Assembly (NCBI RefSeq): GCF_004027225.2
Contig: NC_044291.2
Location: 7,362,707 to 7,426,706, forward strand
DNA length: 64,000 bases
Source of the DNA: Strigops habroptila
Taxonomy: Eukaryota > Chordata > Aves > Psittaciformes > Psittacidae
Direction: 5' to 3'
This document shows positions 14,630 through 64,000 of this stretch, piece by piece. The translations under genes and the position numbers were made by a program. The notes beneath the pieces are model-generated. The model was not told the DNA's origin. It saw only the letters and a program-made list of their open reading frames with translations, and searched no databases. Each line of letters begins with the position of its first letter. Position 1 is the first letter of the stretch.

Positions 14630-14716
14630 GGCAAGGTGTCCCTGCCCATGTCCGGGGGGTTGGAACTAGATGATCTTAAGGTCCTTTCCAACCCTTACAA
14701 TTCTATGATTCTATGA
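13551..14716 (+). mobile_element. CR1 LINE, 5'-truncated, with C-terminal half of ORF2
   Basis: This is a chicken-repeat-1 (CR1) non-LTR retrotransposon and the most intact transposon of the window. It begins abruptly inside the reverse transcriptase, keeps the rest of ORF2 and ends with the CR1 3' untranslated tail. The tail holds the 'gatgatcttaaggtcctttccaaccc' type block and the terminal 8-base repeats (attctatg attctatg) ending at about 14716. Terminal octamers rather than poly(A) are diagnostic of CR1. No clear target-site duplication is visible, as is usual for the family. It lies about 4 kb upstream of the BRINP1 promoter, in the same orientation. Confidence 0.95.
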
Positions 14717-17700
14717 GTTCAGAGCCTTTCAGGCTTCTAGAGCTTCACTGAGGATGATTCAGTTTAATGCAGAGGAACCAGCTATCAGAAACTCCTTTCA
14801 GATATAAAAATCAAAACCATTCCCAACTGTTTCTTCCCACTCTGCTGGGACCTGCCAACATCTTTGCTCAGCTTGGCAGGGGGTTCCAGCCTTCCCTCCA
14901 ACCCCTACTCAATCCTTGACTCCTGCATTGCGGATGGTGGAAACAGTCTCTGCTAGCTCCTTATGTCTTCGCCCTGACGCTTAAGCCCACTCCCAGACTT
15001 TTTCCCACCATCCATCAAAATAGCCTGGTGTTTGGCGACACTGCCCTTTGTATCACCCATCCTGCCTTGCGAACAGTGAGACACTCACCCATGTTTTAAG
15101 GGATACTAACAGCAAATGAATATGATTAGTACTTAGGAGCTGGATATCTCTGCAACCAACACAAAGCACAACCTAAATAAGATCACTACTTACTGTGATA
15201 TTGTTTTCAGAGGAGAAAGAGGAAATACATTTCACAAGAGACTGGGAGAGACCAGAATATCAATACAATGCTCACAAAGCAAGTTTAATCCATTTTTAGC
15301 CTGTAATAAACAATGAAGTCTGCAAAACCTTGACAAGAATACATTCTGCCTCCTCCAGGAGGGCAGCACAACAGGATATGTGGAAAGAAAAAGTTTGTTG
15401 GTAGCATAAGAACAACTCTGAGTAGGGTCAGATTATCTTCACCAGCTCATGGGACTTTGAAGTGAGTTTTTGCTGCAGTATCACAAGCAGAAATGAAGCA
15501 TTCACCATATGCAGTTGGCACATACAGCTCCTTTTGCACTAGATAATAGCACTTTGTACTGGCCTCTTTGGGATGGAGTTGATGTCCTTTATAGCAGCTC
15601 ACATGGTTCTGTGTTCTAGATCTGTGACCAAAACAATGCTGTTAACATGCTGATGTTTAATTGTTGCTGAGCAGTATTGGCACAGCATGGAGGTTTTGTC
15701 TGCTTGTTACTCTGCTCCTCCAGTACATAGACTGGGGGATGTGCAAGAGATAGTGAGGGGATGAGACCAGGTGGATGACCTGAGCTAACTGAAGAGATAT
15801 TCTATGCCATATAACAACATACTTGGAAATAAAAAGGGAAAAGGGGGGAGCTTATGTTAGCCATCTTTTGCTTGGGAACCAGCTTGATATTGGTCTAACT
15901 ATGGAAGATGGTGAGTGATTGCCTTTGCATCACTCGTTTCATTTTCTTTCTCATCTTCTAGTGCTCCTTCAGTTGTTAACAATTTTTCGCATGACTCCCA
16001 AGTTGTCTTGTTTTTACTTGTCCTCTCCTCTTCCCCCATCCCTCTGGAATGCGAGGTAGAAGGGAGTGAGTGGCTCTCTGCAGTGTTTAGTTGAATACTG
16101 TAGTTAATCCACACCCACAACACACTTGGAGTATGCAGTGAAAACTCATTTGCTCATCTTTGTGGCAGCTGTTATGTGAAAAACCATGAACACTGCTTTC
16201 TGCTTTCTAGGTCTGTTTCATGTGATATGTTCCAAAACTTGTCATAGACAGTCCAAATTACTGTTTTCCTATCCTTGCCACAACCATAATTTTTGGGGGG
16301 CCTAGTGCTTGCAATTGGTAGACTCCTTTTACACCATGTGCGTTGTGATTTTCTGTTCTTCATATCTTCCTGTGATTGACTAGCTTCTATTTTCTTCATG
16401 GGAAGAATATTATAGCTTGGAAAAAACCTAAACATTGCTTTAAAGACAACTGTTGAAAAAGGGAAAAAAAATATAAAAGTGAGGATTTGACATGCTGAAA
16501 CTGTTAATAGCTAAAAAAAAAAAAAAAAAAAGTCCTTACTGGTAGAAGAAGAAGTAGAAATCCTTGTTCAATGGAGCTTTGCTGATTTGGGGTGAAGATC
16601 CAGGTTTTGTTCATTGCAGGGAGAAGGGGAGTTGAAATATCCAAGACTAAAGAGAGATCACTGAGAAGAGAAAACTACTGAAGTGAAATAATTTTGTTTT
16701 TTAAAATGACATCCAGAAACCTTATCTTTGACACATAAGAACAGACACATAGTTAAATATGCTGTAACCTGCTTAGGTTTCCAAAGCAGCAAATTAAACC
16801 ACTGGACTATGCAGTGAGTGTCCATTCAGATGAGCAAAGCTCATTGAACACAACAATATTGTAAGAGAACATGTTGAATACTCAATGCACCAAATAATCC
16901 TCTTTTGATACAGAGACAGTAAAAGCTTTTGGGAAAGAGGAAGCAATAGTGTATGTATGAACTGGGGGGAATAGAGAGAAGCATTCTGGGACAGGAAAAT
17001 GATGCGCAAAACTACTTTGCTTTGGTTTATGTTTTCCCTTCATATTTTTATGATATTGATAGCAACTATTATGTCCAGGCAGGACACTGGTCCTAGAATT
17101 TCTTGTCTTTGACCTCCTGGAAGGAGAATATTTGAGTTGTTCTCTAGGTCTGTGAAACCTTTTGTTGCCTGAAGAGCATCATCTTGCTGTTTTCTCTCAT
17201 TCCCTCTTCATGGGGAACATGAAATATTAGGCTGGGTGGTGCCAGGTCCTGCTGGACCCAATTGCACAACAGCCTTCCCAGGTGTAGTGCGAGAAGACAC
17301 CCACTACTGTTGCATTAGTTGAATCCATATATCCTGTGTGACTACAGAACTTGTTCATGGAGCCTTTTCTTTGATTTTAAACAACTTCACCTAGGACAGA
17401 AAGATTCCTCTTCCATTTCTGGCAAATGCCACAAGTACCAGTGAAAGAACACACTAGTGATAACCCCAAACACCACTTTTATGTTTAAACAAATGAAAAG
17501 TGCTTGTTTGTGTCCTGTATAAGACCTGATCCCTCAATCTTCTCTGCCATGGCGTAAGCCATTCCTCTGTGGCCTTCTACCGGGGGAACCTGTGAGAATC
17601 ATTTCAGTCTTTCATTTGAGCCAATGTGACAGAATCAGGGGTGGCTTTACTAGGAAGAGTGCTTTGTGGCTGACCAGTCACTTGGAAAAAAGTAAAACTC

Positions 17701-18119
17701 CAGAGCTTTGGGTGCACTAACTGAGATAGGCTAAGCTACAGCCCTATTGGTATAGCTTGGAGTTTAACCAAACAGCTTCTAATTCTGCTTAGGAAAGATT
17801 TGCTCAAGATTTAGCGTAAGACAATGTTCTGCAGCCACAGAGGATGGGTGAGAGAAGGACAGAGTGTCCTTGCAGGCCAGGGAAGGAAGATGGAAGGACA
17901 TGTCTCCTTTTGCCCTCCTTGCTACCCCTGAACAAGGTGGTCCATTTTTCCCTTCTGTCAGCACAGCCAGTGCCTGACTTGTCTGAGGGGTTCCTGGCTG
18001 GAAGCCTCATGCAGGAACTGTGAGGTGCTCTTCCTACACTGGGTGGCCACTGCTGAGGTTTGCCTGAGTGGGCCATGTCCTTGAGGCATCCCCATCTCCA
18101 TTCCCCATCCCAAACCTTC
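14717..18119. other. Upstream flank of BRINP1; A19 run, no gene seen
   Basis: No exon or clear transposon was recognised. A run of 19 A lies at 16513-16531. From about 17800 the sequence becomes steadily richer in GC as the promoter island is approached. Confidence 0.5.
16513..16531. repeat. Poly(A) run, 19 bases
   Basis: An uninterrupted A19 homopolymer follows a 'gttaatagct' stretch. I saw no retrotransposon body on its 5' side, so it reads as a simple repeat rather than the tail of a processed insertion. Confidence 0.9.
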
Positions 18120-18276
18120 CCTGGGGGGCTTTCCCCACCCCTGCCGTGCCGACCCAGCCGAGCAGCCGTGACAGGAGGCTCCGGAGCACAGCCGCCTGTC
18201 CGCTGCTTCCCGGGATCGCCCGTCTCCTCTCCGCTCCGCTCCCGGCCTGCAGCGGCCGTCACCGCCCCGCCGGGAC

Positions 18277-18297
18277 GCCGCTGTCCGCGGTGCTGAA
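18277..18297 (-). promoter_or_regulatory. RE1/NRSE, binding site for REST (NRSF)
   Basis: Read on the minus strand, this 21-base site has the left half TTCAGCACC, two spacer bases, then GGACAGCG and a final C. It agrees with every fixed position of the published degenerate RE1 pattern (NNCAGCACCNNGGACAGNNNC). It differs from the commonly quoted 21-mer at two of 21 bases, both at degenerate positions. REST represses neuronal genes in non-neural cells through such sites. The position, several hundred bases upstream of the inferred BRINP1 first exon, fits the neural-specific expression known for the BRINP family. Binding itself is inferred. Confidence 0.85.
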
Positions 18298-18319
18298 CAG
18301 CAACCGCACTGCGCGGCTC

Positions 18320-18326
18320 GGGGCGG
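18320..18326 (+). promoter_or_regulatory. GC box (Sp1/KLF type)
   Basis: GGGGCGG core followed by a G-rich stretch, about 25 bases from the RE1. A second box on the opposite strand lies at 18262-18268, so the two GC boxes flank the RE1. Confidence 0.5.
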
Positions 18327-18897
18327 TGGGGGAGGAGACGGCGACTGCTTCCCCTCACCCTTGGGGGAGGTCGTACCCCAAAGCGAGGAGGAGATGGGGG
18401 ACACCCCGCCTTCCCGCAGCTCTCTGCTCGGCGGATCGCGATCCATGAGAGAAAAATCGAAGGCGGAGGAGGAGAAATAAATATATATTACATGGATGGG
18501 GGCTGCCTGGAATCCAGCCAGCCCCCTCCCCAAATCCGGGGGGCAGACAAGTTTAGGTCCCCGTCCAGCGGCCCTTCCCGGTGTCATCCTCCCTTCCCAT
18601 GGCCCAGGCTCCGTCTGGCCGGAGCTTAAGTCACTCCTTTTTGCTCCCCCATCCCGCCCCTCCCCTAATTATGTACAAAACACTTCTTAGCATAAGATGG
18701 CCAGGCTGGGGCTCCTCCCTGCTTCCCTCTTCCCCATTCATCCTCTCCAGGCCGCTCCAAGCCCCTCCCCCGGCGGCAAGCCCAGCCTCTCGCTTCCCTC
18801 CTGGAGCCCTTTTCATTTTTATTTCTAACCCCCTCTCCATTCTCCCTGCTGCCTCTGCTCCTTCCCCCGATGGCTACGAACTGAGCAGCAGAAGAGA

Positions 18898-18927
18898 GGG
18901 GGGGGCGCGGGAATAAGGGAAGGGGGG
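18898..18927 (+). promoter_or_regulatory. Putative G-quadruplex motif just upstream of exon 1
   Basis: Four G runs of 8, 3, 3 and 6 bases are separated by loops of 3, 5 and 2 bases, which satisfies the usual G3+N1-7 rule. It lies on the non-template strand at or just upstream of the inferred transcription start. Folding in vivo is inferred. Confidence 0.6.
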
Positions 18928-18999
18928 AGAAAAAAATCAAGGGAAAGAGGGGGAAGAAAAGGATTTATTTTTATTTTTATTTTTTTGCCTCTGCCCTTA

Positions 19000-19059
19000 A
19001 TGCCCGCGATCTGGATCAAGGAAGGGGATTTTCTGTCTGAGCATGAAAAGGACTGCTAG
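19000..19059 (+). other. Upstream ORF a in exon 1, 19 codons
   Basis: ATG at 19000 reads MPAIWIKEGD... and stops at TAG 19057-19059. Its start context is poor (T at -3, C at +4), so leaky scanning is expected. It overlaps the longer upstream ORF that begins at 19043. Confidence 0.45.
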
Positions 19060-19195
19060 AGCCCCAGGATTTTCACGCCTGCATTATCAGCCCAGCACCC
19101 AGTATGCGAGCTGGACACAGAAGCTCTCCCACAAGTTCCTACCGAGCCGAATAAAACCCACGGACGAGCAGATCTCCGCCAGAGAGGGACATTAG
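19043..19195 (+). other. Upstream ORF b in exon 1, 50 codons
   Basis: ATG at 19043 has A at -3. The frame stays open for 50 codons, rich in basic residues, serine and proline, and stops at TAG 19193-19195, six bases before the exon 1 donor. It therefore fits wholly inside the exon. A translated upstream ORF of this length would reduce initiation at the BRINP1 start. Whether the peptide is conserved or just a product of GC-rich DNA cannot be told here. No known domain is recognised. Confidence 0.45.
19104..19154 (+). other. Upstream ORF c in exon 1, 16 codons
   Basis: ATG at 19104 opens a 16-codon frame ending in TAA at 19152-19154, nested in a different frame inside upstream ORF b. No peptide family is recognised. 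Confidence 0.35.
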
Positions 19196-19900
19196 CATCA
19201 GGTAAGGCGAGCGCTGCGGCTGCAGCCCGGCGCCGGCTCCGCTCCCGCCGGGCTCCCTGGTCCTGCTCGGCCGCGTTGTGTAACGGCCCCCCGGTCTCTC
19301 CGCGCCCTCGGGCAGCGGGGAGTTAGCGGGCGGAGGGATGCACAAGTCCTGCAACCCGGTTAGCGAGTGTGTGTAGGAGCGCGGGGCCGAGATTCGCCGG
19401 TACCGGGAACACTGGGAGCACTGGTTCCTACCAGGAAAGGCGCAGCCCCCGGGGGCTGGCCGCGAGTGGGGGTGGGAGGTAGCCAGGATCTATCTGTATT
19501 CCAGAGTATCGATACAGCCCGGAGCGGGTAGGGGGGGACACAGGGACCCTCCCCAGGGAGATGGTGTCATCGCCGCTTAATCTGCTGCTCGGGTTTTGCG
19601 AGTGACAGAAGCAAATCGCGGAGGAAAAGGGAAGTCTGGCGCCTTGGATCCAACACTGGGCTGCTCGCCGCTACTTCGGGGGGGGAGGAAAAGATGCCGG
19701 TGGGGAGCGATGCCGAGGGCTGCATCCCACAGCGCAGTCGGTTGGTGCTCCCCGGCTCAGCTGCTTGTGAGGCTGGTGCGGAGCGCAACTTTGCCTTTTC
19801 TAGTCCGTGGGGGAATGGGGGGCCCGGAGGGCACCTCCACGCCATTGCATCATTCCCGGGGTCCAGAGTAGCCCGGGTGTGATGATTCAGAGAGAGGAGG

Positions 19901-21829
19901 AGGAGGAAGGCTGCCGATGTGAGTGTGTGGCTTTGGGGAGTCCCCCGTGCTTTTACTTGGGAGTAGGGAAGGGGAGGGGGTGTCACTTCCCAGATGCAGT
20001 CTTCTTTTCATGGAGAAAAGCAAGTGCTGGTAGTCTTAATGTATGGATTTAGCCTTGTGATCGACATCTGCACTAGGTAGGACAGGAGGGTCCTTCATGC
20101 TTTACCCTGGCTGTTCATCTGGGTGCATATTAATTTGTTAATGGCAGTAAAGCTGCTTTCCTAAGAGTTGTAGAGAAGTGTTTGGGGGATGGTGAGAGCA
20201 GGAGGTAGTGAGTAAAGGGGAGACGAGGCTTCGATGTAAGAAATATGAAAGGGTTATATGTTTTTTTAATTCCTTATAAAGGAAAAAGATTGATCAGATC
20301 TGCTTGTGGGTGACAGACAGACAAACCCGGGCGCTCTCCCACCCACACACCACACAGACAAGCAGTCGCGGTGTCCCTGGCAGGCATGTACACGCTAAGC
20401 ACACATAACACATGCTGCCGAACTCGCGCAGTCCCCACGCTTCAGCGCAGCATCTCAGTCTTGTTCTTGCACAGATTCAAGGACCTGTTCAAGCCCTGCA
20501 GCTCTGCAGTTCCCCACACTCAGACACATGTTCGACCTACACAGGAACACACTGTAATGTGCAGAAATAACCACATTGATATTCTCATGATGTGAATCAA
20601 ACATTCAAATGTTTGTATGAGCATACACGCACTGCCTCTTTTGCAGGTCTCTCAGTAGGTGGTTTGTTCCCCAGCTTCATCCTCTTAATCGTAGTGGGTT
20701 CCAGGCATTGATTTGGGGTTTGTTTGACTCCCAAGCTCTTTGCAACTCAGCGGAAAGAGCTGCTACATTTTGTGTGTCTCTGTCTGTTTTATGGCTCTTT
20801 GCACGTTCCTAGGACTCGGGGATGATTTCACTACTGGAAAGGCAGGCAAGCAGCAGGCAGGGACCAGGCGAATGGCTGGGGGGAGCGGTGGCAATCCCAA
20901 ACCCATCACACCCTCTCTGATCACGAGCTGGAGCCTGTGAGTATGGGAAGGACTCTGCTGGAGCCACACTGCTTTTCTCTGTGTGTGAACAAAACCACAT
21001 ATACGTCTATAGCTAAAGCACACACAGTGCCAGCCTGTGCTTCAGTCTTACCCTGCTTCAGAGCAAAACCCTCCCATCCTCTGAGTACCAACACTCCTGA
21101 GCCTTTGCAAGCCCCTTTGATCAGAAATGGCATCATATGCACGGGGGGTTGTTGTCACTGGTGTTAGATGTATTTAATTGACACACCCCTCTGACCTTCG
21201 TCCCCTTTCCCTCTTTCCATGGGGCCTAGTGAGGAGGTTGTGCAAGCGCAAGGGTAGAACGAGGCTAAAGTCTGTGCTAAAACTTCAGAGAGGAGGAATG
21301 TGTGTGGAATGGGCTTGCTGTAGGGAGAAGGTGTCCCAGAAGAGGTGGTGGAGGGTGCTCTGTGTTCCCTCCTCACTTCCGCTGTTTACTACATTAGAAG
21401 TATGTGTAAGGCTGATGCTGAACGTTACGTGGGAACGGGTCTGCCAGCAGACAATCCTCGCTGCTGTCTGCGTAACAGAAACGGTTCAAAGCCAAATCCT
21501 CCCGTCCTCGCTCCGGCAGAAGCCCCACTGTCTGCCTGGAGCACGCTGTTGGGGAAGGCGCTGCAGAAACTGGCTCCAGCCCAGACCCGCGCAGCCGTGC
21601 CTGCCTCCAGGCATAGATGTGGGTTTCCAGAGTTTATCCAGGGCTCTAAGCCGACACCCTGAATCCAGCTGACGCAGGGAAGGCAGGAAAAATTTACTGG
21701 GGGGGTGGTGGGGGGTGGATATAAACGGCTAAAGATGAGAAGCGGGGATGGAGAGCACCAGGAGAGCCCAAAGCACCATGTTCGAGGATGGGGAGTGAGG
21801 GAGGGATTTCAGCACCACCACCCCCCTTT
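19901..21829. other. Intronic sequence, nothing firm recognised
   Basis: Moderately GC-rich sequence with CA-rich patches around 20330-20420 and scattered CpG. No exon or transposon was identified. A G-rich stretch at 21699-21718 has only two runs of three or more G. Confidence 0.4.
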
Positions 21830-22110
21830 CCTCCGCCACCGCGCAGCGCTGCGCTCCCGCGGAGGGAGGCGGGAGGCGCCGTCCTGGACCAGTAGGGGGC
21901 GCTGTGGCTCCATGCAGCACCAAGCGCGCAGCGGCGCGGAGCGGGACCGACTTCCCCCCCACTCTCCCCGGCCCCGCGGAGCTGGAGCCAAGCGCTGAAG
22001 ATAATAATAGTACGGGGGGGAGCTGTACATAACAACGGCGCTCTCTTCTCCCAGGGGCCCAGGTGCAGCTGAATGGGCCGGATTGGATCCTTCTCGACCC
22101 GCTGGAGCGT
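21830..22110 (+). promoter_or_regulatory. Second CpG island inside intron 1
   Basis: CpG density rises again (for example 21838-21870 and 21924-21980) about 2.6 kb downstream of the exon 1 donor. No good donor or coding start marks it as an alternative first exon. A strong CTCF core lies inside it, so an insulator, enhancer or alternative promoter role is possible. Confidence 0.6.
21889..21902 (+). promoter_or_regulatory. CTCF core motif
   Basis: CCAGTAGGGGGCGC matches every position of the CTCF core pattern CCASYAGRKGGCRS. The flanks (TGGA before, TGT after) also resemble strong CTCF sites. In the + orientation it could anchor a chromatin loop. Occupancy is inferred. Confidence 0.75.
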
Positions 22111-25100
22111 GCGGAGTGCTGAGGATCTGGCCTGGTGCACGCAGGAATCTTTTACCCGGTGATGAAATGCAGCTACTTCTGGGACAGAGCCCAGCAGCTT
22201 TTCCGTGCCAGCCAATACTACAGGGGAAGTGAAAAATCACTTCATGCATTGAAAGTGCAGAGATGAACTTAGTGAGGCAGAATATAAATTACCCAGAGTT
22301 AAGTAGCTTGTGCCCTGTGGCTTGATTTACACCATCCCTCTTGCAAAAGTATCACGAGATTTTTAACAGCCACAAGGACCTTGGTCTGTTTCCTTCCAAA
22401 ACAGCTTCCCAGAAAGGGAAAATATCCACGTGCAGGGATCTGGCTGCTAAAGAGACCCATGGATCATGGTCCTATTCTGTGTCTCTTCCTCTTGCCTGGA
22501 AGATGGCTGCCACCCAGAGCAGGATTCTGAGTTACTGCATGGTGCTGAGCTGGGTCGGGTTAAAGCATCTGTGTGTGGTACCCCAGGGTGTTCTTGGATG
22601 CTGGGGAGGTTTTTCCCTGCTTGCTGTGCCACCGCACTGCCGCATCCAGCTGACCCGCTGGGACTGGACCTGGGCTGGACAGGGTTGCAGCAGGCTCTTA
22701 GCTTGTAATCAGTGTGGAAAAGGGAGATGCTATCAAGCAGAGAGGCCTGGGGAAGGAAACTGGATATATCTGCTGGGTTCTTTTGTTTGGAGAGAGTCAA
22801 ACATGAGCAGAGGTGGACTAGACAAATGAGGTGACATTTACTGGGGCTGGGGAGTAGGTATAGGGTAGCTGTTGCTGACTTGATGGGCTGAGCTGTGTTG
22901 TTTCAGGGAAGAAGTCCTAGGAATAGTAGGAGGGAGGAATGGGAGAAACAGCAGAAATTGGAGGATCGGCTAATTTAGACTGAGCTGAAGACAACTTCAG
23001 GGATGCTGGACCAGATCCTAAGTGAAGGTGTCATAAACTGGGTATAAACATGTCATTTTGAAATGGAGGTAAGAGTCAGGCCCAGGATTCCTCCCGTGAT
23101 TGGGTTGGGGAGTTTGATGCAACATGTCTAAGCCTTTGCAGCCCCCTGCTCAGTGAGCTGTTTTTTTGCAGCCTTGGGGCAGGACCTGCAAACAGCATCA
23201 CAGGAGAGAAAGATGCTTATTTATTTTTGCTATTTGTTCTTCTGAAGTCATGTGCTCTACATCCATTTTATTGTTGCCTACAAGATGCAGCTGACAGAGC
23301 TTAGCTACGCACAACGCTGTTGCTCTGCCTGCTGACAGGCCCCTTTAGAGCACAGTGCTGGGTGAGAGCGGTACCCACAGCAGCACTGATGTCCCTGCAG
23401 CTCTGTTGGTGGCATGTCTCTAGGTGTAGATATAGTGTTCCCCAGTGCTTGGACTCATATGCATGATTCCCTGCTCCTGTTTCAGGAAAACAACTAGTTG
23501 CACTGCTGATAGATCACCTCTTACACTGGCAATAGAAATAACAGTAAGTCAGAGCAGCAGCAACTGATTGGAGTAAGTAATCTACAACAGCTTCTAACGG
23601 TGGCCTGCAGAGGAGGATGGAGTAAATAGCCTTTGCCAGACACACGCTGTTGTTTCATTGTTTATTTTGGTGATAGAAATGCTGGACAGAGGTAGAAATT
23701 CAGGTGCCAGGAACACCAGTATGGCTCTCAAGCCCTAGGACAAATTCACTCTGTGTGTTAGCAGTGGGCACTGTGCAGTGGAATATTGCCACCACAGTGA
23801 CATCTTCCCTCCCAGAGGTTCACAAATGACAATAAAGCCAGCTCTGGGCTGACACGTACGAAGCAATGACACAAAAGCTTGCAAACCGAGCTATGAGAGG
23901 TTCTCACATGTAAGAGAAGCTCCAGAAAAAACAGCTGGCTCCAGGGCTTTTTGCTGGAAATCAGAACAGAGTGTAGGAGCAGAGGGAGCTCTCACACTCC
24001 CATCCATCTTCCTGTACTGCCTGATTTCCAGTAGAGTAGCTCTGGTTCTTTGAGTCTCTTCATGCTTGGGACATGTCTCATGGCTATCCTCATAGAATGT
24101 GTGCTCTTTCACCTGGTGGTTATAGGAGATAAAGCCTGGAGACTTATGAGAGGTCTTCTTATAGCTTGGACTTTAATATCTATGCATATTACAGCTGAAA
24201 TATGTTGTACAGTGAGTATCCACGAAAAGCTTGGAAGCGCTTGCTGTAAATCATCACAGGCTGTCGAAGCCGGGAAGTTAACTGGCTTCATGGTGAGTGA
24301 GGATCTCTTTCTTAGGGTTTGATTTAGAGCATGATTTAGAATCTGGCCTCTGCTCTAGACTCTGCTGTGTCCATCATGAATTTGGATGCAGTTTTGGCCA
24401 GAAGTCCTGAGTCGGCACAACTGATCCCATTTAGCCATCTCTTTACCCTCCTGGAGCTGTGTACAAGGTTGTCGGATACATTGCTAACATTGGAGACCCT
24501 TGTTGCAATTTATCCTCTGCAACTGTGGATGCTGCCTCACTGAGCTGGATGGAAGATGGAGATGGTGAGCTTTAAAACCACTGCCTCATGTGGGCAGCAC
24601 ATTCCAGGTGTAGCTGCAGGACCAGAAGAATAAATACAAGGAACTTATACAATAGGTCAAAGCAATAGTTAGAAAATATCAAAAAAATTAAAACTAACCA
24701 AGGAAGGATGGAAGGGAATGAACTGTGACCCAGGGGAGGAGGCTGATGGTTCCGGGCAGGTAGGAAAACCGAGATGAGCAGGTGGACTTAGGGGATCAGT
24801 GGAGCAGACAGCAGTGAGGCAGGTACCAGTGCTGGAGCAGCCTGCCTGCTTTCAGCATGTGACTGCTCTGCAAGCAGGTACAGATAGTGAGCGGGTAAGC
24901 AAAGCCCTTGGACATATGCTGGGGTACATATGGGGCTATGGGTCCCTCCTGGCTCAGACCACTTCCTTGCCTAGAACATGAGGATACTAGCGTTAATCCA
25001 GACACTTCTCGCACTGCTCTGTGCTGGCAGAAATTTGCAGTCACAATCAAGGGTGTGTTTTGAGGCAGCTGGGAGAGCTGAGGATGTACAAGGTGAGACT

Positions 25101-46259: not shown

Positions 46260-46309
46260 GACTCCACAGAATGGAGCAAGAATGAGAGGAAAAAGGCAGA
46301 CAGAAAAGC
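46260..46309 (+). other. BRINP1: BRINP1 exon 2, 5' untranslated part
   Basis: Fifty bases from the acceptor to the start codon. They hold two further upstream start codons: ATG at 46271 gives a four-codon frame ending at 46285, and ATG at 46282 gives a 15-codon frame ending at TGA 46327-46329. The second overlaps the BRINP1 start in another frame. Confidence 0.85.
46271..46285 (+). other. Upstream ORF d, four codons (MEQE)
   Basis: A minimal frame in the exon 2 leader, ending 24 bases before the main start codon. It is present in any BRINP1 transcript that uses this exon, whatever first exon is spliced to it. Confidence 0.6.
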
Positions 46310-46329
46310 ATGAACTGGAGGCTTGTTGA
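46282..46329 (+). other. Upstream ORF e, 15 codons, overlapping the BRINP1 start
   Basis: ATG 46282 opens a basic peptide ([15 protein letters not shown]) that terminates 17 bases after the A of the BRINP1 initiator, in a different frame. Ribosomes that use it cannot easily reinitiate at 46310, so it should reduce BRINP1 output. Confidence 0.6.
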
Positions 46330-46527
46330 GTTCCTCTACCTCCTGTTTATATGGGACCATATACTAGTACAGCCCTCCCACCAGGACCCAGCTGCTACCA
46401 ACCAACATGTCTCCAAGGAGTTTGATTGGCTTATTTCAGACAGGGGGCCTTTCCACCACTCACGGAGCTACTTATCCTTTGTGGAAAGACATCGTCAAGG
46501 ATTTACAACCAGATATAAAATATACAG
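46310..46527 (+). CDS. BRINP1: BRINP1 exon 2: first coding exon (signal peptide and start of mature protein)
   Basis: BRINP1 is a secreted or endoplasmic-reticulum glycoprotein of neurons with a MACPF domain, induced by BMP and retinoic acid and linked to restraint of the cell cycle. This exon encodes residues 1-72 and two bases of codon 73. Residues 1-20 form a signal peptide (MNWR start, hydrophobic FLYLLFIW at 8-15). From residue 33 the sequence [20 protein letters not shown], then [20 protein letters not shown], agrees with vertebrate BRINP1 as I remember it, right up to the known exon boundary before the MACPF region. The start has A at -3. The donor after AG at 46526-46527 (GTACGT) leaves a phase-2 intron. 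The signal peptide is clearly more diverged than the rest. BRINP2 and BRINP3 are the alternatives but lack this N-terminus. Confidence 0.95.
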
Positions 46528-52414: not shown

Positions 52415-52798
52415 GTTGGCGTTGTTCAGCCTGGAGAAGAGAAGCTGTGGGGAGACCTCAGACCAGCCTTCCAGTATCTGAAGGGGCCCTACAAGGATGC
52501 CAGAGAGGGACTCTTCATCAGGGACTGTAGTGACAGGACAAGAGAGAATGGGTTCAAACTAAAACAGGGCAAGTTCAGGTTAGATATAAAGAAGTTCTTT
52601 ACTGTGGGGGTGGTGAGACCCTGGAACAGGTTGCCAAAAGAACTGGCAAATGCTCCATCCCTGGCAGTGTTCAAGGCCAAGTTGGACTAAGCCTTGGACA
52701 ACATGGCCTAGTGTGAGGCGCCCCTGCCCGTGGGAGGGGGTTAGAACTAGATGAGCTTAAGGTCCTTTCCAACCCAAACCATTCTGTGATTCTATGAC
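52415..52798 (+). mobile_element. CR1 LINE 3' fragment
   Basis: It starts at 'gttggcgttgttcagcctgg', the ORF2 C-terminal region, and runs through 'ttcaaggccaagttggact' to the 3' tail with 'agatgagcttaaggtcctttccaacc' and terminal octamers (attctgtg attctatg). Small indels break the reading frame (for example after 'gagaagagaagctg'). It is moderately young, closer to the copy at 13551 than to the ancient ones, and in the same orientation as BRINP1. Confidence 0.93.
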
Positions 52799-58300: not shown

Positions 58301-61262
58301 CCCTGGGGAGCACAGGCGCACAGCCTGGGTAAGGCTAATAAGAGAGCTTGGTACACAAGAAGAACTGTGTTGCATTGACAGAAGCAAGCAGGAGAAACAG
58401 GAATAAGAAAAGAAGGTTGTTAGCTTCATCTCTGGTTAAAGCTAAATTGTCTCCATCAGAGTAATACGTTCTCCTTGCATTTTGTTTTCCTCCCCTCTGT
58501 TTTCATCCCTTTGCCCCCTATTCATGCACAGACTCAGTGAAAGTCTCAGGTTCCCTCTTCCCTCCCATAAAGACTCCAGACTGTTTCTTGGGAGTACTTA
58601 ATATCTGGGCCATACCAATTCAGCAGGTGAGTGTCGCCGAATCACAGGATGAACTATACCTCTAGCCTATTTAATGTCTCTTCAAAGCCCACACTTTTAG
58701 AGGCCTGTGATTATGTAAAGAGTCTCAACTCAATTTTTAAAGTAAGTTTACGGCCTTCATAATTGCAGAGGAAAACTTGATAATGCTACTCCTACATACT
58801 CAGAAAGCAGAAGGCAAAAAAGGAAGAAGGAACAAAAAAAACCCCAAACCCTGAAGTTTATCAGATTTTAAGAGTCTCATGAATTTTAAAACCAATCTCT
58901 TAATTCTTTTTTGGAGCCTGACTCATGATTTTCAAACAGTTAGCAATATGGCTGTAGGGATTGTAAGGCTGGTTTGTTATCTTATTAGATAACTTACATA
59001 AAATATCCAAACCCATGGAGACTCTGAGATTGAGTACTGCACTCCAGTACACAGCTGGAGAGAACAGTGTCTGTTCCTTCTGTATAGATGCTGAGGATCT
59101 CTTCTTAATCCAGGTCTCTAGTCACTACTGCAGCATAAATATTTCCCCAAATTTTATTAGTGCTAATCATATGAATGAGAATAGCCATAATATTGATCTT
59201 CATAATACTTAGGTTATTAAATTTGAGTTTGAAGGTAGTTTTGTGGGGCAATTCATAATAATAGTAAATCTCGTCAGCATGCATAACCAGGGAAAACAAG
59301 CCACAGAGCAATAGCATTGCAAACCCAGAGAGAAATATGTTCTAGAGTCTTCCATCCTACCACAAGACTGCACACTGAACAGACATGTGAATAAATTAGC
59401 AATGCCAGAACTGAAGTTGTGCTAATCATTTGATAATCTCAGGTGAACTAATTGATCTGAAATGGGAGAAAAGCCTTTGGATGTTGAAACAATTTGTTCC
59501 AGTATTTCTATGAGGTATATGCACCACCCAGGGGCACTTTATTCCCGGAACATTTACATGCATACAAAGACAAGGATGCTGGTGTGATAAAATGAAAGGG
59601 GATTGCCTTCCACATATAAGCTTATTCAGGCTGTCCACATTCAGTTTCAGACTCACACTTACTGAAGAGGTAGGGAGGTAGCAGAGCTCACCATGCTCAT
59701 ATCTGTCACAGAGTCTCATAGGTGCCTCTGTGCAGATAAGAGGTTTGAGATGCACACAGATATTGGGATGGCTGAAGCTTCTTGCATGGCCTGTGGTGGA
59801 TTAAAGGAAATCTGAGCAGACTTCTCTGTGAAATATCTCTATAATAGGGGCCAGAAAAAGTCTTACCAGCTCTTGTAGCACCTAACAAAGGAGGAACTAA
59901 GAGTGTGGAAGAAGCTGAACGCTGCTACATAAGAAGTTTACAGCATAATTGCCAACTGTACTTGGACTTAATTTTCTCTTGCAGAAGAGTCATAAATAAG
60001 TTTATTGTTTTCACTGCTGGGAACTGAGATATTTTAAAGACAGTGCTGTATCTCCCCGCTTGAACACATCAGCTCCATTGGTGACTGTCCCCTCTATGAT
60101 TGTGGGTGAGCATCCAAAGGTGAAGACTTTATATGCATAGCTGCTGTCTGATTGCTGGAATAGAAGTATCTATCTCAGCTCTCTGTCAGAGTCTTGCAAG
60201 TGTTTGTAGCACTGGGGTGGGATTTTCACTCATGGTAGTGGGGATTGTGCACCAAGAGGGGAGCAGATCTGGTTCTACAAGGATGGAGGAAGGCAAATGA
60301 CAGGATGGCAAAGTCTTTGCATAAAATTGGCTCAGTGAGGTAGAAGAATGTTTCAGCCAAAGTAAGGTTTTGTCAAACTCTTTGATTCTGTTAGTAATAG
60401 AATGTTTCAGGTGATGGATTGGATTCAACATAGTTTTGAAGTCTCAGCCTCTCTGGTCACTAGTGACTATGGTGGAAAAGAGAAATCCAAGAAATAAGCT
60501 GTTTTGACCAAAAATTGTCTAATGAAAACATAATGAGCTGTTCCAGATTCTTCCAGCATGGAAAAAAGCCAGATTCTGCAGACCTGAAAATAGCTGCGAA
60601 AAGGAATAAGCGCCCAGACAACTCCAGCCACTACTGAAGTCGGAGCTCACCCAAATGTGAGCGATTTAAGCTTTGTCTGGAGACACAAAACTGAAGCCCT
60701 TACCAATTACAGATGAGTTATCATCAGGTGCCACAGGGACAGTGCAAAGAGGTTGAGTAGTAAAGGATTAGCCGGTGCACGCAGCAGTATTGAGCAACCC
60801 ACTACTACCTCTTATTGTGCTCATGCCAGTGGAAATTCCTTCTTTAGAATGGAATATTTTATTCTATTTTTAAGAGCTCTCCATTTTTCATGTAAGAAAG
60901 GGACTTGGAGCAGCGTCCAATCTGTAATCAATCAGTCCGCCTTTGCAGAAAAGCTCTGAGGAAGAGCTTCTGCTCTTTGGTCCTTTATCTTCTCTGTGGA
61001 CACACAGAAATTATGTTTCTCAATGGGATTAAGAGTGAGGGAGAGGGAGAACTGCAGCCAGGGCAATCCTCAACTAAACCTTATAGGCTATAGTGCTGTA
61101 GTGACTATCTGTACCAAAACTGTACCCAACCACACTGCTTCTGTCTCCGGTCAGAACAAGCAGATAAGCTTGGATCAGACTTAGAAAAGGTATTTAAGCA
61201 CTTTGTGTGGGTACTTAACCGCCTAAATGCCAAATTCCTGTAGATTTTAGTGGGCTTTACAA
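55346..61262. other. Intronic sequence, nothing firm recognised
   Basis: No exon, RNA gene or recent transposon. A short tandem 'ttacacca' lies at 57159-57175 in a stretch that could be conserved. Around 58635-58700 there is a vague CR1-like start ('gaatcacaggatgaact') that I could not extend. Confidence 0.4.
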
Positions 61263-61360
61263 CACAGAATCACAGAATAGTTTGGGTTGGAAAGGACCTT
61301 AAAGATCATCCAGTTCCAAGCTTTTGAAGAGGATCTCTCACAACCCTAAATGAGGCCATC
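61263..61360 (-). mobile_element. CR1 LINE 3' end fragment
   Basis: Read on +, 'acacagaatcacagaatag', 'tttgggttggaaaggacc', 'ttaaagatcatccagttcc' are the reverse complement of the CR1 3' terminus with its octamers. The match fades after 61330-61360. This is the one younger CR1 fragment here that is opposite to BRINP1. Confidence 0.85.
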
Positions 61361-61850: not shown

Positions 61851-64000
61851 TATAACTCTCTTTATCTATAGCCAATACCAGGTCCAGCTGAGGTAGGAAA
61901 ATTCAACTATTTATTCAAGATCAAACTATGATCTGAGTTCTCCATGTTCTTGTAGGACCAGTGCCTGAACCCAACACCAAGGTCCTCAACCTTTCTGAGA
62001 TATCTCAGCTGTTTAGTGTCTCTCCATCTCCCAGTTGCAGGAAAAGAGGCTTTAGGGATCCCAGTTCACTGCTCCATGATAGATCACACAGTTTTGGTAA
62101 CACTGGGGAAGAACAGAGGAGTCCTTTACCATGTCCCTCCCAGCGCCCTCTCCTATGCCAGCAAACTGGCCTCCTTCCAAAAGTGCCTCAGCAGAGCGAA
62201 ACTACGTGACTGACACTCACCGACTGCCCTTGTCATCCGTGACCAGCATCCCAGGAGACTGCAACTTCTTCCATGCCTTTATTGGTGTCAAACAGCACAG
62301 CCTCTCCCCTGGGTTTTATTAGAGAAGCTGATGCCAAATCACCCAGCTTCCTCCTACTCGATAAAAAATGTTTATAACCCAGTAAATTCTAACATATCAG
62401 CAGCTTGTTATGGAGGGAAAAGGTCATTGGGAGAGAAAGGAAAGGAAAAAAAAGAGTGCCTTTCCATTAGAATCTCTGGCTGGGTGTATATGAGGGAGTC
62501 AGTGCAGGAAAACATCTTTCGATATGATAAAGTCTCATAATAGAAAATGTTGCTGCAATACAGGCCTTGTTTCTTCAGATAAATATTTAATATAGATCAC
62601 TAAAGATTAATCGAGTACAAAAAAGAGTTCTTCCTATGGTTGGTGTAAAGAAAACATGTTCTTGTTATTTTATCATGGAGCCTGAAACAAGAAAAATCCT
62701 ATAGAGAGAAATGCAGGGTACAGTTTCCACAGAGAAACAGCGCACCGCACCAGGATTTATTTAGTGTGTGGGCAGAGGACTTCCCAGAACCAGCTGCAGC
62801 TTGGCATCCATGTGATAAAAATCCCAGTGTAGGAAGAAGTCTCACAGAGTCATCCGTGTTCTGCTAATCTGACTCCTGCACATCCCAGAGTATCCAGGAA
62901 TGGTGAGACTGTAGCACCTATGGGCTCTTGAGAGCTTGCTCCATCCTGGATGAAGGTTGTACGATGGCACGTGTACCATCCCAAGCTGCTCCTCCAGGAA
63001 AGGGCAGTCAGTTCTTTTGGAGTAAGGTAATGTCCCAAGCTTCCGTGAGGAGAGGACCCCCCAGCCTGATCCTGAGGGCTGCTTGCTTTGGCCAGAAGTC
63101 CCCATAAGCATCTCCCTGGCAGTTTCTCTAAGGCATTGTGACTGTTTCAGTGTGTTCCTGACTGTATTGGGCAGCAAAGAATCCATGGTGTTGATGTGAG
63201 ATTTCCCTCTCTCACAGTGCTGGGGCATGCTTAGTCAGCACCATTGTGATGGGTAAATGAAAGGACCTCTTTGCTATCTGCAACACCATCCACAGGAACC
63301 ATGTTCCCAACTGTTTTGCAGCGTTAAATAGGACAGTTACAGAGAATAAATCATAAATAGCAGCAGAGGCAGTCAGAGGGAGAAAAGAAGAGTCGCAGGC
63401 AAGGGAGGAGAGAAAAGAGATACGATTTCAGCTGAGACTGAAATGGAACAAAGAGTCAATGAGATGAAGAGCTAGATGGGGGTTGTTCCAGATGGCCAGC
63501 CCCACTGACGTGAAGCCTCTTGCACCACCAGCATCTTGTGATCAGCTTGTGAAGGAGGAGGGCCGCTTAGATGAGCAGTGGATGTGGGCAGGAGAATCTG
63601 GCTGTGCTCAGGGATGTGGGAAATAGAGGAGCCCCCTCCCAAATGCATGTTTTAGAGACCAGAATCAGCTCTGGAGAGAGGGATGCTGTAACATTTTCCC
63701 ACTTCTCCAACAAGCCGTGTCTAGTTGCTTCTCTACAGGTGGTGCTTTGTTTTCCTGCTTGACTTTTTCCTGTGGACACCTTTCCTGTTTTGGGAATGTT
63801 CATGTCAAACAGTCAACAAAACACTAGTCCACTTGTTCGGCTCTCCCCAGGAGAGAGGCCAAGGGAAGGATGGTTGAATCTCACCAGTCATATCCCAGTC
63901 ATACTGCTCTGTGCAGTGCTGGGAGGCATTCAAGAAAGGTAGCTAGGAAGAAGATGGAAAAAGCATGGTTAGATAAGGATGATTGACTTTATTTTTGTGG
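61851..64000. other. Intronic sequence to the end of the window, nothing recognised
   Basis: No exon or named repeat was seen on either strand. The open frames (for example 62842-63228 minus) lack homology that I recognise and lack splice-site support. Confidence 0.45.

Follow-up and report, generated by a model that had tools for sequence, protein, structure and literature searches.

Results

The window analyzed here, i.e., the whole stretch of 64,000 nucleotides, contains the first coding exon of a gene that is identified as BRINP1 by this exon. Exon 2 lies at 46260-46527 on the plus strand, has its ATG at 46310, and has splice limits predicted from good signals at both ends, an acceptor, TTTCAACAG/GACTC, and a donor, TACAG/GTACGT. 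Its product is 73 amino acids long, with the last codon completed by the first intron base. A search with this peptide gave nine related proteins, with 99% identity to P0002 and 88% to the "Deleted in bladder cancer protein 1-like" protein of Ophiophagus hannah. Seven of the nine relatives were used in the alignment (P0008 and P0010 were left out), and the short peptide had no match in Pfam or PDB. Furthermore, a 29-residue peptide that we take to be part of BRINP1 matches exactly at 46418-46504 (+), which together with the related proteins bears out the gene assignment of the earlier, sequence-only reading. Among 12 peptides presumed to belong to BRINP1, three were found, all within exon 2, and nine are absent from the window, including one that spans the end of exon 2. 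BRINP1 therefore presumably extends beyond position 64000. Literature abstracts describe the gene as neural-specific. Exon 2 also contains an upstream ATG, which opens a 15-codon frame at 46282-46329 (+) overlapping the main ATG; this frame may be conserved, since P0009 starts with the similar MRGKRPAEKHELE.

The end of exon 1 and the promoter can be placed tentatively from two features. The putative exon 1 splice donor, CAG/GTAAGG at 19199-19207 (+) with its GT at 19202, is the sole match to [ACG]AGGT[AG]AG in 18000-22500, a pattern that covers strong donors only. The TATA-like TATATATT at 18482-18489 (+) is the sole TATA[AT]A match in 17800-19400 and a candidate core promoter. These two likely mark the end of exon 1 and the promoter, and the start site given here is predicted from them. 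A CpG island at 18059-18628 (66.7% GC, 45 CpG, observed/expected 0.72) covers the candidate promoter, and a second island at 19019-19889 (63.5% GC, observed/expected 0.75) spans the predicted end of exon 1 and the start of intron 1. Within 17500-20500, GC boxes are found as CCGCCC at 18262 and 18654 and as GGGCGG at 18321 and 19328, all of them consensus matches.

The first CpG island also contains a canonical RE1/NRSE at 18277-18297 on the minus strand. The plus strand of these 21 bases reads GCCGCTGTCCGCGGTGCTGAA, and its reverse complement, TTCAGCACCGCGGACAGCGGC, agrees with the degenerate RE1 pattern NNCAGCACCNNGGACAGNGNC at every fixed position. Both half-sites are present, TTCAGCACC on the left and GGACAGCGGC on the right, separated by the 2-base spacer GC. 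Compared to the usual 21-mer TTCAGCACCACGGACAGCGCC, the site has just two substitutions, G for A at position 10 and G for C at position 20, both of them at positions that are N in the degenerate pattern. It includes three CpGs, at site positions 9, 11 and 18. The first GC box of each kind flanks the RE1, the one at 18262-18267 (minus strand, CCGCCC on the plus strand) on its upstream side and the one at 18321-18326 (plus strand) on its downstream side. The RE1 is located near a neuronal gene, BRINP1, 185 bases upstream of the TATA-like box and 905 bases upstream of the predicted exon 1 donor at 19202. The description given by the sequence-only reading, i.e., a minus-strand site within a CpG island, between GC boxes on both strands and several hundred bases ahead of the predicted first exon, is thus accurate, with the start site itself placed by prediction.

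The strict RE1 pattern has this one match in the 64,000 bases, and none of 100 dinucleotide shuffles contained a match. The analytic expectation is 5.3e-5 matches per window, or approximately 0.9 per 1.1 Gb at the composition of the window, where 1.1 Gb is the assumed size of a bird genome. When up to three mismatches were allowed, four RE1 matches were found compared to 1.72 expected, a number reached by 12 of 100 shuffles, and the remaining three matches (three mismatches each) are therefore no more than chance would give. A scan for non-canonical half-site pairs (same strand, spacers from -30 to 25, at most one mismatch in the left half and two in the right) found none in the window and returned the canonical pair at 18277-18297 alone.

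The site was also scored with a REST weight matrix, a check suggested by the sequence-only reading. Fourteen sites went into the matrix: the canonical NRSE given in PMC3529185, together with 13 rows out of the 16 that make up Table 1 of PMC1794552. The row sequence shared by mir-132 and mir-212 was omitted because it nearly equals the RE1 under study, and mir-29b-1 was omitted as a duplicate of mir-29a. The RE1 scores 31.3 bits of a maximal 34.7 and exceeds 12 of the 14 matrix members. One member, mir-153-1, differs from the RE1 at position 20 alone, and the matrix therefore lacks independence from the site. In simulated sequence, the highest score was 17.3 in 300 simulations of 18059-19889 and 20.4 in 60 simulations of the whole window, and none attained 31.3. 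The score thus falls among those of known sites and exceeds what chance would give. Since the matrix is small and home-made, with mostly predicted sites and mir-153-1 among its members, we regard the score as a check and not as a calibrated value. The next best matrix score in the window, 14.9, is inside the distribution of the maxima from the simulated windows, which average 13.6 and reach 20.4, i.e., no further RE1 beyond chance was found in the window. The site had previously been called consensus-perfect, and this holds for the degenerate pattern, which is matched at all fixed positions with both deviations at degenerate ones. It does not hold in the sense of the best possible site: because G replaces the canonical C at position 20, the site scores close to the upper end for RE1s but below the maximum.

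Several other elements were recorded in the window. A third CpG island at 21327-22192 (61.3% GC, observed/expected 0.64) is located 2-3 kb downstream of the predicted end of exon 1 and is possibly an alternative BRINP1 promoter. Inside this island, in the presumed intron 1, CCAGTAGGGGGCGC at 21889-21902 (+) agrees with the CTCF core consensus in full. The gene is named for its induction by BMP and retinoic acid, and a search was therefore made for retinoic acid elements in the form of direct repeats with a spacing of 1, 2 or 5, which gave one DR1 at 24731 (-), also in the presumed intron 1. CR1-type 3' end repeats are found at 14700-14717, at 52781-52798 (+) and at 61261-61278 (-), i.e., three compared to 0.03 expected, each with one mismatch; their ATTCTRTG octamers presumably represent the avian-type CR1 end motif, and the repeats suggest that the DNA comes from a bird or a near relative. 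Rfam at gathering scores gave no matches in the window. In viral contigs, the 21-mer had no exact match and 14 stretches matched exon 2 patterns, none of them a relative, results that have no bearing on vertebrates.

Discussion

We consider it highly probable that the site at 18277-18297 functions as a canonical RE1 in the BRINP1 promoter, and very likely that it is the counterpart of one already published. The analysis establishes the sequence of the site, its rarity, its gene and its position, whereas the start site, binding of REST, the resulting repression and orthology with the published element are inferred. According to a 2023 review, BRINP1 promoter activity is inhibited via an RE1 motif in the promoter, with Nakatani and Matsuoka (2004) as the source (PMC10605157). 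The title of that study, as given in reference lists, pairs DNA methylation with NRSF/REST (PMC5464830, PMC10605157). The main text of PMC3928644 (same group) contains neither NRSF nor REST, and that of PMC1794552 does not name BRINP, DBC or FAM5. Other sources are more distant in the parts available: PMC10248403 places a REST site in TRPC6, not in BRINP1, PMC9305173 concerns KCC2, and passages of PMC4408091 make no link between BRINP1 and REST. The RE1 reporter survey in PMC9903721, as described in part of its text, excluded loci in the 5 kb that precede a start site. Among the openly licensed papers examined, we found no report of an avian BRINP1 RE1. That a promoter RE1 represses BRINP1 is thus already published, and what our analysis adds is one apparent counterpart of the known promoter RE1, in a bird.

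The most likely function of the site is silencing of BRINP1 outside neurons by REST, in agreement with the published work. In non-neural cells and progenitors, REST would bind the 21 bases via its zinc fingers and recruit corepressors, namely Sin3 and CoREST with HDACs, LSD1 and G9a, which would hold the CpG-island promoter inactive. As REST declines in neurons, activators would gain access to the promoter, e.g., factors of the Sp1 type through the GC boxes on either side of the RE1. The roles of these corepressors in REST function are established, as summarized in a figure legend (PMC10605157), and the BRINP1 RE1 leaves the general view of how REST works unchanged.

A chance match in GC-rich promoter sequence, unbound or non-functional, seems very improbable. 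CpG islands do favor GC-rich words, close to one strict match is expected in a bird-sized genome, and even perfect consensus matches can arise by chance in a vertebrate genome (PMC1794552). However, the expectation is 1.3e-5 matches in 18121-19980, none of the 300 simulations of 18059-19889 attained the score of the RE1, and the adjacent gene is one for which control by a promoter RE1 is reported in the review cited above (PMC10605157). It is even harder to credit that the RE1 serves another transcript instead of BRINP1, e.g., a non-coding RNA transcribed divergently from this island. An island of this kind could fire in both directions. RE1 silencers are generally regarded as working in either orientation, and the minus-strand position of the site therefore says little about which transcript is the target. 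A DBCCR1-linked non-coding RNA is known from a reference title in PMC5464830.

A third alternative, which we regard as unlikely but of some weight, is that REST binds the RE1 and contributes little to neural restriction. BRINP1 would then be silenced by promoter methylation or by missing neural activators, and REST would act mainly in progenitors or tune the neuronal level. This is consistent with the naming of DNA methylation beside NRSF/REST in the 2004 title (PMC5464830, PMC10605157), and with an RE1 that lies in a CpG island and has three CpGs within it. Against it, the review ascribes inhibition of the promoter to the RE1 itself (PMC10605157). The probability of this alternative and that of the functional RE1 do not sum to one, as both have REST bound at the site.

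For the functional RE1, the sequence-only reading went as far as a direct cis explanation of neural restriction. The identity of the site, the identity of the gene and the promoter-proximal position are borne out. The explanation itself is partly supported: it is not new, and because the 2004 title adds DNA methylation to NRSF/REST, the RE1 is probably not the entire cause. Given this title and the three CpGs, methylation could also act on the RE1 itself. That the three-CpG variant, as in mir-132, has methylation and REST acting on the same bases, as a joint switch kept since before the split of birds and mammals, appears improbable to us. Collectively, the results suggest that a bird lineage, too, has the RE1 control described for BRINP1; REST control of this gene may therefore be old among vertebrates.

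Among known sites, the BRINP1 RE1 closely resembles the human mir-132/mir-212 NRSE (PMC1794552, Table 1), with which it has 20 of 21 bases in common (positions 2-21), among them the spacer GC and, at position 20, a G that is less usual there. The human site has A at position 1 where the BRINP1 RE1 has T, and it belongs to another target gene; ChIP work by others backs mir-132 as a target of REST (PMC1794552). The pig SYN1 NRSE (PMC3821028), with wild-type bases deduced from a mutagenic primer, is the same at positions 1-19 and has C at position 20 where the BRINP1 RE1 has G. Like the BRINP1 region, the pig SYN1 promoter is described there with Sp1 elements, and a single-base mutant of its NRSE gave broad expression in zebrafish, in one founder (PMC3821028). 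In a zebrafish silencing cassette, one of two NRSEs is the 16-base core TCAGCACCGCGGACAG with the GC spacer (PMC3531662). The canonical NRSE (PMC3529185) has the left half-site and the 2-base spacing in common with the BRINP1 RE1, which deviates from it once in the spacer (position 10) and once in the right half (position 20). As the mir-132/212, pig SYN1 and zebrafish-cassette NRSEs share sequence with the BRINP1 RE1, these two departures give no ground for doubt. Among the closest known systems is also the RE1 of Nakatani and Matsuoka (2004; BRINP1/DBCCR1, PMID 15193422), which, according to the sources that cite it, agrees in gene, promoter position, factor and proposed effect. It presumably comes from another vertebrate class, a rodent, and its likeness to the bird site is judged from these shared properties and not from its bases.
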